Shown here in pieces: positions 1-51,958 of a stretch of DNA of 64,000 nt. Numbering within the stretch: position 1 is the stretch's first letter; every line of letters begins with the position of its first letter. This DNA is from Pontibacter vulgaris (GTDB lineage: Bacteria; Bacteroidota; Bacteroidia; Cytophagales; Hymenobacteraceae): NCBI RefSeq assembly GCF_022758145.1, contig NZ_JAJVDH010000001.1, positions 124,001 to 188,000 on the forward strand. The letters are read 5' to 3'. The position numbers and the translations under genes are program-made. Below the pieces are notes generated by a model, which was given only the letters and a program-made list of their open reading frames with translations, had not been told where the DNA came from and ran no database searches.

Positions 1-1070
1 AGTATATGTCGATTGTGCAGAACGCTGGTGGCGCACTTAATGCCAACACTTCATTCGACCGCACTTATTACTACGAGTTATTACCATCAAACCAACTCAA
101 CCTGGGCCTGTGGATGGAGGCAGAACGCATGCGCCACGCCAAAATAGACGAAGTTGGTGTGGAAACACAGCGCAAAGTAGTACAGGAAGAAAAGCGCGAA
201 CGCATCGACAACCAGCCTTATGGCACAATCGGCGAGAACGTGTTTTCTTTAGCATACACGAAGCACCCTTATAAAAACATGCCGATTGGTTCTTTTAAAG
301 ACCTGAACAGTGCTAAGATTGAGGAGTTCCGTGATTTCTATAAAACCTTCTATGTGCCTAACAACGCCACGCTTTCCATTGCCGGCGACATTAACATAGA
401 TGAGACCAAAAAGCTGATAGAACAGTATTTCGCCAGCATCCCGAAGGGCACCAAGGCAGTACCTAGACCAAATGTAACAGAGCCAAAACAGACCGAGGAG
501 CGCCGCAAAACTGTTTATGACAACATACAGTTACCGGCCGTTATCCAGGCTTACCACATACCGGCGCAAGGCACCGAAGATTACTATGCGCTATCTATGC
601 TGACTACACTGCTTTCCGGCGGCGAAAGTGCCCGATTGCCAAAAGCACTGGTAGATAAGCAGCAAAAAGCCGTTGCCGCACAATCTATACCTTTCCCTAC
701 CGAAGACCCGGGCCTGTTCCTGACCTTAGCCATTGCCAATATGGGCGTAGATGTAAACGACCTGGAGAAAGCCATGAACACCGAGATTGACCGTGTTAAA
801 ACAGAAGACCTGAGCGATAACGAGTTCCAGAAGCTGCGCAACCAGGTAGAAAGCCAGTTTATCCAGGACAACCGCACAGTAGCCAGCCGCGCCGAGAGCC
901 TTGCCAACTACCATGTATACTATGGCGATGCCAACCTGATCAATACCGAGCTGGAGCGCTATATGAAAGTTACGAAAGCCGACATTAAGCGTGTAGCAAA
1001 CCAGTACCTGGCAAAAGAGAACCGCGTAGTGCTGCACTACCTGCCAAAATCTGCCCAGCCTAAACAATAA
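1..1070 (+). CDS. M16 family zinc peptidase, C-terminal part (cut by window start)
   Basis: The open frame runs in from the left edge (codon phase begins at base 3), so the N-terminus and the HxxEH zinc motif lie outside the window. What remains, about 355 residues, matches the M16 (pitrilysin/insulinase) layout. Near the start is the stretch that normally follows the zinc motif (YYYELLPSNQLNLGLWMEAE), then VVQEEKRER, which sits where the second zinc-ligand Glu is found. The C-terminal half carries GGESARLPKALV, the usual substrate-binding region. It ends 17 bases before a second M16 gene. Such tandem pairs usually pair an active with an inactive subunit in the periplasm. I infer this is the active one because the zinc-side Glu region is kept. 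Confidence 0.9.
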   Translation, partial: YMSIVQNAGGALNANTSFDRTYYYELLPSNQLNLGLWMEAERMRHAKIDEVGVETQRKVVQEEKRERIDNQPYGTIGENVFSLAYTKHPYKNMPIGSFKDLNSAKIEEFRDFYKTFYVPNNATLSIAGDINIDETKKLIEQYFASIPKGTKAVPRPNVTEPKQTEERRKTVYDNIQLPAVIQAYHIPAQGTEDYYALSMLTTLLSGGESARLPKALVDKQQKAVAAQSIPFPTEDPGLFLTLAIANMGVDVNDLEKAMNTEIDRVKTEDLSDNEFQKLRNQVESQFIQDNRTVASRAESLANYHVYYGDANLINTELERYMKVTKADIKRVANQYLAKENRVVLHYLPKSAQPKQ

Positions 1071-48062: not shown

Positions 48063-51000
48063 TTACACCGCCTGCTGTGCTACCGGTTTCGGCTCATAGT
48101 TCAGGTTCGGCGATAACCAGCGTTCCAGTTCCTCTTTAGCCATACCTTTACGTTGCGCGATATCGGCCACCTGGTCTTCACCTATCTTGCCTAAACCAAA
48201 GTATTTCGATTCCGGGTGCGAGAAGTATAAACCGCTTACAGCCGCGGTTGGGTACATGGCCAGGTTCTCAGTAAGTATAACCCCAGACGTTCTCTCCGCA
48301 TCCAGCAAATTAAACAGCGTGATCTTTTCGGTATGGTCAGGGCAGCCCGGGTAACCTGGTGCCGGTCTAATGCCTTTATAGTTTTCCTTGATCAGGTCTT
48401 CGTTGGTTAGGTTCTCATCTGGCTCGTAACCCCATAGTTCCTTGCGAACTTTGGCATGCATCAGCTCGGCAAAAGCTTCCGCCAGTCTGTCTGCCAGGGC
48501 TTTTATCATGATGGATTTATAGTCGTCATGCTCGGCCTCATACTTCTCCAGCAGCTTCTCAATGCCAAAACCAGCTGACACCACAAATCCGCCGATGTAA
48601 TCAGCCACGCCTGTTTCTTTCGGAGCTACAAAATCGGAGAAAGCCAGGTTAGGCACGTTTGCACCCTTCTTGCCTTGCTGGCGCAAGGTATGGAACTCTG
48701 TCAATACATTTCCACGTGAATCATCGGCGTATACTTCGATGGTATCATCTGCCTCCACGTTGGCAGGATAGAAACCTACTACAGCGCGGGCTTCCAGTAA
48801 TTGCTTATCCACGATTTCCTGCAGCATTGCCTGCGCATCGTTAAACAGTTTGGTTGCTTCTGTGCCTAATTCCGGATCGGTCAATATTTTCGGGTACTGG
48901 CGCTTAAGCTCCCAGGCGTGGAAGAATGGCGTCCAGTCGATGTACGGCACGATCTCCGAAAGCGGGTAATTAGTGTATGTTTTATTGCCCAGGAAGCTAG
49001 GTTTAACCGGTTTAGTAGTGTTCCAATCAACTTTATACTTGTTGGCGCGGGCTTCTGCTATAGTTGCAAACGCACGGTCTTTGGTGCGGCTCAGGTGGTC
49101 TTCGCGCAGCTTCTCATACTCTGCTTTTATCTCGGCAATATAGCTGTCGCGTTCGCTGCTCAGCAGGCTACTCACCACCGTTACACTTCTGGAAGCGTCG
49201 TGCACGTGCACTACCGGACCACTATACTTTGGCGCAATTTTCACGGCTGTATGTACGCGCGAAGTTGTAGCTCCACCAATCAGCAGTGGAATCTTCATGC
49301 CACGGCGTTCCATTTCCTGTGCCACATACACCATTTCATCCAGTGAAGGCGTGATCAGACCGCTCAAGCCAATGATATCTACTTTATGTGCTTCGGCTTC
49401 TGACAGGATCTTATCCAGCTGCACCATTACGCCTAGATCAATTACCTCGTAGTTGTTACAAGCCAGTACCACACCCACAATGTTTTTACCGATGTCGTGC
49501 ACGTCGCCTTTTACAGTAGCCATCAGGATGGTACCTGCTGTAGATTTAGAAGTATCGCCGGCCAGTTTCTCCTGTTCCATGAACGGCAACAGGTACGCTA
49601 CCGACTTCTTCATAACGCGGGCACTCTTCACCACTTGTGGCAAAAACATTTTACCAGCACCAAACAAATCACCCACCACCGACATACCTGCCATCAGTGG
49701 ACCCTCGATCACATCCAATGTTTTGGTTGCTTGCTGGCGTGCTTCTTCGGTGTCTTCTTCTATAAAATCAACTATACCTTTTACCAAAGAATGTTTCAGA
49801 CGCTCTTCTACGGGGGCTTCGCGCCAGGCAGTGTCGGCAGCCGTGGCAGTTTTGCCTTTGCCTTTTATAGTTTCGGCATAGGTTACCAGTTTTTCAGTAG
49901 CATCCGGGTGGCGGTTAAAGATCACGTCCTCGATCAGGTCGCGCAGCTCAGTTGGTATTTCGCTGTACACGCCCAGCATACCTGCATTCACAATACCCAT
50001 GTCCATACCCGCCTGTACGGCATAGTATAAAAACACCGTGTGCATGGCTTCACGTACTATATCATTGCCACGGAAAGAGAAGGAAAGGTTGCTTACACCG
50101 CCACTGATCAGCGCATGTGGCAGGTTCGCTTTTATCCATTTTACAACTTCGATATAATCTACCGCATAGTTGTTGTGCTCTTCTATACCTGTGGCAATCG
50201 CCAGTATGTTCGGGTCGAAAATGATGTCCTGCGGCGGGAAACCTACTTCATCAACCAGAATGCGGTACGATCTTTCACATATCTCTTTTCTGCGCTCCAG
50301 CGTATCAGCCTGGCCCTGCTCGTCAAAAGCCATTACCACTACGGCGGCACCATACTGGCGCACTTTGCGGGCCAACTTTTTAAAGGCTTCTTCGCCTTCT
50401 TTTAAGCTGATGGAGTTAACTATAGATTTACCCTGCACACATTTCAACCCGGCTTCTATCACGCTCCATTTCGAAGAGTCGATCATGATCGGCAGTTTGG
50501 AAATATCCGGCTCAGAAGCGATCAGGTTAAGGAAATTGGTCATGGCCTGCTCTGAGTCAAGCATGCCTTCATCCATGTTCACGTCTATTATCTGCGCACC
50601 ACCTTCTACCTGCTGACGCGCAACTGCTAGGGCTTCTTCAAACTGGCCGTTAACGATAAGCCGTGAGAACATTTTGGAGCCGGTTACATTGGTGCGTTCG
50701 CCGACATTTACAAAAAGGCTTTCGGGGGTGATGGTTAGGGGCTCGAGGCCGCTGTAACGTGGGAGTGGGGCAACAGGGGTAGGAACGTGCGGTTTATACT
50801 TTCGCACCAGGTCTGCAATTACTTTGGTATGTACGGGCGTAGTGCCACAACAACCACCCAATATATTTACCAGCCCTTCCTTTAAATACTCTTCAACTAT
50901 AACACCCATCTGCTGGGCTGTCTCATCGTAGCCGCCAAAAGCATTTGGCAAGCCGGCATTCGGGTAAGCGCTGATATAACAGTCTGAAATGCGGGATAGC

Positions 51001-51776
51001 TCCTGGATGTGTGTTTTCAGCTGACGTGCACCTAAAGCACAGTTAAAACCTATACTAAGTATAGGGGCATGCGAGATGGAATTATAGAAAGCCTCTACCG
51101 TCTGCCCAGATAAGGTACGGCCACTGGCATCGGTTATAGTTCCGGACACCATGATCGGAAGCTCTTTGCCACCATCATTTACAAATTGCTGTATCGCAAA
51201 AAGGGCAGCTTTACAGTTTAGCGTATCAAAAACAGTTTCTACTAACAGCAAGTCAGAACCACCATCCACTAAACCACGCACCTGCTCATAATAAGCTTCT
51301 ACCAGTTGGTCAAATGTTATGGCACGGTAACCAGGGTTATTTACATCCGGTGAAAGCGAAGCTGTACGGTTAGTTGGGCCAATCGCGCCCGCTACAAAAC
51401 GTTTATGCGAAGGATCTTTGGCTTCTATTTCATTTGCAGCTTCACGGGCAATCTTAGCCGACTCATAGTTCAGTTCATACACGATATGCTCCAGCGCATA
51501 ATCGGCCATAGCTATACTTGTACCACTAAAAGTGTTGGTCTCGATGATATCAGCGCCAGCTTCCAGATACTCAGTATGTATGGCTTTAATGATATCCGGG
51601 CGGGTAATGGAAAGCAGGTCGTTGTTGCCTTTCAGGTCGGATGGATGATCTTTGAAGCGCTCGCCACGGAAATCTGCTTCCTGCAATTGGTAACGCTGGA
51701 TCATGGTGCCCATGGCGCCGTCAAGCACAAGTACGCGCTCTTTCAGTAGCTGGTAAATCGGATGTGTTTTGGTCAT
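48063..51776 (-). CDS. metH: Cobalamin-dependent methionine synthase
   Basis: 1237 aa from the ATG at 51776 ([20 protein letters not shown]); the frame continues upstream to 51830, but that part is the riboswitch leader. Four modules: homocysteine methyltransferase (res. 1-330, zinc Cys in [11 protein letters not shown] and GGCCGTTP), pterin-binding (about 345-630, [12 protein letters not shown]), cap and B12-binding (about 660-890, [16 protein letters not shown] with the axial His), and SAM-dependent reactivation (about 900-1220, [20 protein letters not shown]). It makes methionine from homocysteine using methyl-B12. Full length, single polypeptide, no split. Controlled by the SAM-I riboswitch just upstream; metF follows. 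Confidence 0.96.
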
Positions 51777-51828
51777 GTTCGGGGTCTTTCTTCTCGTAAG
51801 TCTTCTGCGTTCGCTTATCAAGAAGGAC
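51777..51828 (-). promoter_or_regulatory. Putative expression platform of the metH riboswitch
   Basis: In the leader between aptamer and metH ATG, 51814-51828 reads GTCCTTCTTGATAAG on the minus strand. It complements the 5' strand of the aptamer (51941-51955) at 14 of 15 positions, competing with P1. The same segment can instead pair (8 of 9) with AAGAAAGAC at 51785-51793, 9-17 bases before the ATG. I infer a translational switch: SAM binding frees the segment, which then masks the purine-rich start region. No T-run terminator is seen here. Confidence 0.5.
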
Positions 51829-51847
51829 ACCCTAAGGAAGGATATAC

Positions 51848-51958
51848 TCTCTTATCTTCTCTCAACTATAGTATAGCTAAGAAGGGAATTAGCACCAAGC
51901 TGGTACAAGGTTGCTAAGACGTCATCGGGCCCTTCCCTCGGTCTTTCTTGATAAGAAG
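51848..51958 (-). ncRNA. SAM-I (S-box) riboswitch upstream of metH
   Basis: Read on the minus strand, conserved S-box elements appear in order: CTTATCAAGA, GAGGGA, GGGCCCGATGA, AGCAACC, GGTGCTAATTCC, and the closing AGAAGATAAG. P1 is formed by CTTATC (51950-51955) and GATAAG (51851-51856). The kink-turn-type and pseudoknot segments fit class SAM-I. It senses S-adenosylmethionine and should switch off metH (and probably metF) when SAM is plentiful. Confidence 0.93.

Follow-up and report, generated by a model that had tools for sequence, protein, structure and literature searches.

The window, a stretch of 64,000 nucleotides from Pontibacter vulgaris (contig NZ_JAJVDH010000001.1, positions 124,001 to 188,000), carries on its minus strand, in this order, rplU–rpmA (rpmA being identified by a match to the profile TIGR00062), two intrinsic terminators (52193–52164, from the terminator search, and 52062–52034, which separates the leader from rpmA), a −7-like promoter box of the Bacteroidota type (TAAATTGC, 51968–51961), a SAM-I aptamer (51957–51849), a 72-base platform extending from the aptamer 3′ end, and metH, which encodes a cobalamin-dependent methionine synthase (48063..51776; TIGR02082, 1771 bits; NF007024, 2134 bits). 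The aptamer aligns with the entire RF00162 model (1–108 of 108) at 74.2 bits, above the curated gathering score of 44.4 bits, is located in a methionine/SAM gene leader and is predicted to bind SAM. The ATG at 51776–51774 was retained as the metH start codon, as it fits the conserved N-terminus in relatives, and an in-frame upstream GTG at 51830, present in the list of open reading frames, was rejected because the distances between aptamer and ATG in relatives differ by non-multiples of three. The −7-like box lies directly 5′ of the aptamer, and a TAnnTTTG/TAnnTTG-like box adjoins the aptamer in nearly all of the Pontibacter metH leaders printed; given this predicted box, the message would begin at or close to the aptamer 5′ strand. 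Three SAM-I aptamers are present in the genome, in which no SAM-II aptamer was found.

Within the platform, a control strand (GGGTGTCCTTCTTGATAAG, 51832–51814, minus strand), nearly invariant in Pontibacter, can pair with either of two partners. The first is the 5′ strand of the aptamer itself (51955–51941, minus strand), which comprises the 5′ side of P1, J1/2, and the start of P2: GTCCTTCTTGATAAG (51828–51814, minus strand) and CTTATCAAGAAAGAC (51955–51941, minus strand) are complementary at 14 of 15 positions, exactly as a preliminary description of this DNA had reported. The control strand thereby mimics the P1 3′ strand (51856–51849, minus strand, placed by the Rfam alignment), with which it competes for the 5′ strand, and reaches beyond it, over J1/2 into P2. 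When the downstream leader was shuffled 200 times with its dinucleotides preserved, no shuffle paired equally well with the 5′ strand (z = −6.6). Conservation of the complementary segment, which the preliminary description had itself named as a test, turned out to be strong. A SAM-I aptamer lies ∼65–78 bases 5′ of metH in each of the 37 Pontibacter genomes sampled (G000–G036). An aptamer is also present in all 40 metH leaders of the same family (five other genera) and in 56 of 80 further metH loci (named records, nearly all from Bacteroidota), and the 5′ strand pairing recurs in most of the aptamer-bearing metH leaders found outside Pontibacter. The first 17 bases of each aptamer were paired with the leader 3′ of it, and the best duplex surpassed those of all 200 dinucleotide shuffles in 35/37 Pontibacter leaders, 37/40 same-family leaders, and 22/56 of the others; in Pontibacter, the median z-score was −6.0, and all 37 leaders had a downstream partner for the 5′ strand at z < −4. 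No downstream partner was found for the P1 3′ strand, whose median z-score stayed at ∼0 in every group and which passed −4 in 0 of 127 metH leaders; this strand and a mid-aptamer strand were both rejected as alternative partners, with z-scores near 0 in the same leaders.

The second partner of the control strand is a pre-AUG strand, CTTACGAGAAGAAAGACCCC (51800–51781, minus strand), delineated from the hairpin in the minimum-energy fold and from comparisons of own and swapped strands. In that fold, 51832–51814 pairs with 51800–51781, and the resulting hairpin coexists with P1. The preliminary description had proposed an eight-of-nine pairing of the same leader segment with AAGAAAGAC, and this pairing does hold, albeit with AAGAAAGAC at 51792–51784 (8–16 bases 5′ of the ATG) rather than at 51793–51785 and as part of a longer helix than was described. 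Forced folds gave −49.1 kcal/mol for the state with P1 and the hairpin and −45.7 kcal/mol for the state in which the 5′ strand pairs with the control strand, values close enough that the ligand could decide between the two. Of the 20 bases that precede the AUG, the first state engages 65% in pairs and the alternative 0%; the hairpin ends about five bases from the metH start codon, and across leaders this pairing ends at a median of four bases 5′ of the AUG. In all 37 Pontibacter leaders, the control strand is paired downstream in the P1 state, and both pairings are conserved.

The initial suggestion of a three-way switch, with the stretch of aptamer sequence repeated just 5′ of metH as its decoy, draws on the fact that AAGAAAGAC occurs in the pre-AUG strand as well as in the aptamer strand, here and in many Pontibacter. 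However, the pre-AUG strand drifts within the genus (GAGAAGAAAGACACC, AAGAGGGGGAACACC, AAGAAGACACT, GAGAAGAAGGATACC) while its control-strand partner is kept, and in many species it bears no likeness to the aptamer, as with CTTAACTAAGAGGGGGAACACC in leader L118 or with AAGAGGGGGAACACC, and still pairs with the control strand. What is kept is therefore complementarity and not a copy, which argues against the duplicate as decoy, an explanation that we regard as very improbable. The idea of one leader strand with two mutually exclusive partners is borne out by the folds, by conservation, and by the swap tests below, and the arrangement is better described as a four-strand switch with two states than as “three-way”: the 5′ strand pairs with the P1 3′ strand and the control strand with the pre-AUG strand, or else the 5′ strand pairs with the control strand.

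Taken alone, the pairing that covers the start region is moderately unusual relative to shuffles (median z = −2.7 in Pontibacter, with 18/37 leaders at ≤1%), because the pre-AUG strand is rich in purines and its shuffled versions still find a fair match in the control strand. As the shuffle tests were only moderate, strands were swapped between leaders: in 53 nonredundant leaders, own pre-AUG strands paired at a mean of −13.1 kcal/mol and swapped ones at −9.5 kcal/mol (standard deviation 0.43, hence eight standard deviations). For the other pairing, covariation can be sought only in other genera, since the 5′ strand does not vary at all, and the control strand hardly, when 18 Pontibacter leaders are aligned. 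There, the alignment of leaders suggested at the outset as a check for covariation did uncover matched changes, the two J1/2 bases that differ among lineages being matched in the control strand as CA/TG in 46 leaders, CC/GG in 25, and other combinations in 6. Among separate lineages, Ohtaekwangia (L238) and a Chitinophaga metagenome-assembled genome (MAG; L240) have the matched pair CCAG/CTGG, leader L226 has a compensated CGCG/CGCG (CGCGAAAG/CTTTCGCG), and in Yeosuana (L243) the 5′ strand and the control strand form ∼21 pairs. Swapping J1/2 and P2 among 81 nonredundant leaders, each keeping its own P1, weakened the pairing from −14.6 to −12.1 kcal/mol (standard deviation 0.25), a shift of ten permutation standard deviations. 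Common descent is not corrected for in any of these permutation tests, but the matched changes recur in several orders. Beyond the family, the hairpin at the start is formed less regularly, and the control strand can lie as far as 60–130 bases from the AUG (Spirosoma, Mucilaginibacter). We can hardly credit the view that both pairings are chance matches between a purine-rich and a pyrimidine-rich stretch: the good pairing of shuffled pre-AUG strands would speak for it, but conservation of the pairings, accompanied by matched changes, extends through six genera of the family to other Bacteroidota, and the other aptamer strands score near zero in the very same leaders. Overall, both pairings are present and mutually exclusive, and across genera and families they are conserved and show compensation.

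On this basis, the leader likely forms a SAM-I riboswitch that represses metH translation through an inverted antisequestor/sequestor platform, the direction of the response and the translational output being read here from sequence. When SAM is bound, the aptamer would keep its 5′ strand in P1 and P2, leaving the control strand (51832–51814) free to pair with the pre-AUG strand in a sequestor hairpin that would hinder initiation and turn metH off. When SAM is low, the control strand would instead capture the aptamer 5′ strand (the 5′ side of P1, J1/2, and the 5′ side of P2), thereby breaking the aptamer and leaving the pre-AUG region open, with metH on. In Flavobacterium johnsoniae and other Bacteroidota, mRNAs lack Shine–Dalgarno sequences and initiation is tuned by the structure of the start region and by an A at −3 (PMC6847099), which makes a hairpin just 5′ of the AUG a plausible block. 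Translation is thus probably switched off when SAM is plentiful, with no Shine–Dalgarno sequence involved.

The same RNA switch could also act chiefly through early transcription termination, by Rho or by a terminator devoid of a T run, or through message decay, with the translational block as a secondary effect. Translation-blocking riboswitches can couple to Rho, which lends this reading some support, as do two distant metH leaders (L278 and L297) in which a hairpin and then a T run (AGAGGGGTTTTTTGTTTT) lie between aptamer and metH and where an intrinsic terminator may take the place of the inverted platform. In the present leader, however, a terminator platform was rejected: as the preliminary description had noted, there is no T run, and on the minus strand the search detected no intrinsic terminator from the aptamer to metH, its two hits both lying 5′ of the aptamer. 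Moreover, the hairpin reaches as far as the start codon, where it is conserved. We accordingly deem a termination or decay output unlikely, if less so than the decoy, and the translational output that was originally considered likely finds support.

The inverted platform appears mostly particular to metH. Most other SAM-I leaders of Pontibacter, including the two others of this genome, lack a platform of this kind, and its use by them was accordingly rejected. A complementarity of these leaders to the GGTGCTAA core of the aptamer is not consistent. Two leaders, one 5′ of a homoserine dehydrogenase-like gene (L006, genome G008) and one 5′ of an OAH sulfhydrylase-like gene (L007, genome G047), have an aptamer 5′ strand with a strong downstream complement (−25.0 and −26.3 kcal/mol, respectively), and the inverted platform may hence occur outside metH now and then. 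Poly-Cys upstream open reading frames are known cysteine attenuators in mycobacteria. Among the non-metH SAM-I leaders of Pontibacter, 68 of 94 carry, in the gap between aptamer and gene, a short open reading frame with at least four successive Cys codons, a feature seen in 0 of 41 metH leaders and in at most 1 of 94 leaders per set of dinucleotide shuffles. These leaders precede O-acetylhomoserine sulfhydrylase-like, cysH-like, transporter, and other genes, and in P. vulgaris the reading frames encode MSAMGCCCCMC (L001, G000:C3:241380-241490) and MCCCC (L003, G000:C3:367376-367479). Both Cys codons are used (TGT 226 times, TGC 144 times), which points to retention of the peptide rather than of a DNA repeat. 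This suggests a putative cysteine leader-peptide attenuator stacked behind the SAM-I aptamer; we found no literature case of a poly-Cys upstream reading frame acting as an attenuator in Bacteroidota or together with SAM-I.

Two metH loci have a second SAM aptamer nearby. In a genome of the same family (G059, locus L181), two SAM-I aptamers lie back to back (132–238 on the minus strand and 552–658 on the plus strand), one 5′ of metH and the other belonging to a divergent unit. In a Flavobacteriales MAG (JABGVU010000074.1, locus L277), the metH SAM-I aptamer (568–666, plus strand) is accompanied by a divergent SAM-II aptamer (441–500, minus strand) fewer than 70 bases away; no species with both SAM-I and SAM-II had been reported by Barrick and Breaker 2007 (PMC2258182).

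The predicted layout is found in the metH leaders of many Bacteroidota. We lean, with some reserve, toward a broader reading in which an inverted SAM-I platform is shared by the metH leaders of this phylum, the 5′ end of the mRNA serving as the antisequestor partner and the control strand, in direct competition for the SAM-contacting J1/2, gating a hairpin next to the AUG, such that the whole would make a conserved translational switch suited to ribosomes that do not rely on Shine–Dalgarno sequences. Translational control by riboswitches in a phylum of this kind has been little examined, the literature that we found consisting of general statements or Proteobacterial cases. With regard to this question, the metH leader is compact (∼190 bases) and conserved, has two arms that can be altered in a compensatory way, and occurs in culturable bacteria, which makes the matter directly testable.

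From the perspective of known SAM-I switches, the metH leader belongs to the same aptamer family as the yitJ S-box of Bacillus subtilis and likewise opposes a ligand-stabilized P1 to an alternative platform helix (PMC3656099). In yitJ, however, it is the 3′ side of P1 that switches, by pairing with the 3′ strand of the antiterminator, and an intrinsic terminator provides the output (PMC3656099), whereas in the metH leader the 5′ strand is captured, and neither a downstream pairing of the P1 3′ strand nor an intrinsic terminator in the platform, the two marks of a classical S-box attenuator, was found. The topology of the metH platform is in this sense inverted relative to the classical S-box. 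Modeling of yitJ has led to the proposal that SAM contacts J1/2 and that the competing pairing is thereby blocked (PMC3656099); if so, the control strand of metH would compete for the ligand-contacting element itself and not for P1 alone, and strand invasion would directly sense ligand occupancy. The met operon of Xanthomonas campestris offers another parallel, as it also uses a SAM-I aptamer and, when SAM is bound, encloses the start region in a platform hairpin, with translation as the main output (PMC7270179). Its hairpin nevertheless covers both the Shine–Dalgarno sequence and the AUG, and its anti-Shine–Dalgarno strand also senses uncharged initiator tRNA (PMC7270179), while the metH leader has no Shine–Dalgarno sequence to cover, none being used in its phylum. 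Finally, the OFF switch outlined in general terms by Barrick and Breaker 2007, in which the ligand disrupts an antisequestor pairing and a sequestor hairpin forms (PMC2258182), resembles what we describe, since one platform strand of the metH leader has two exclusive pairings, one of which hides the start region. Start-hiding structures were not predicted in that study (PMC2258182), while here the strands are identified and conserved, and the antisequestor partner is the aptamer's own 5′ strand. Among papers available without subscription, we found no description of such an inverted platform for metH.
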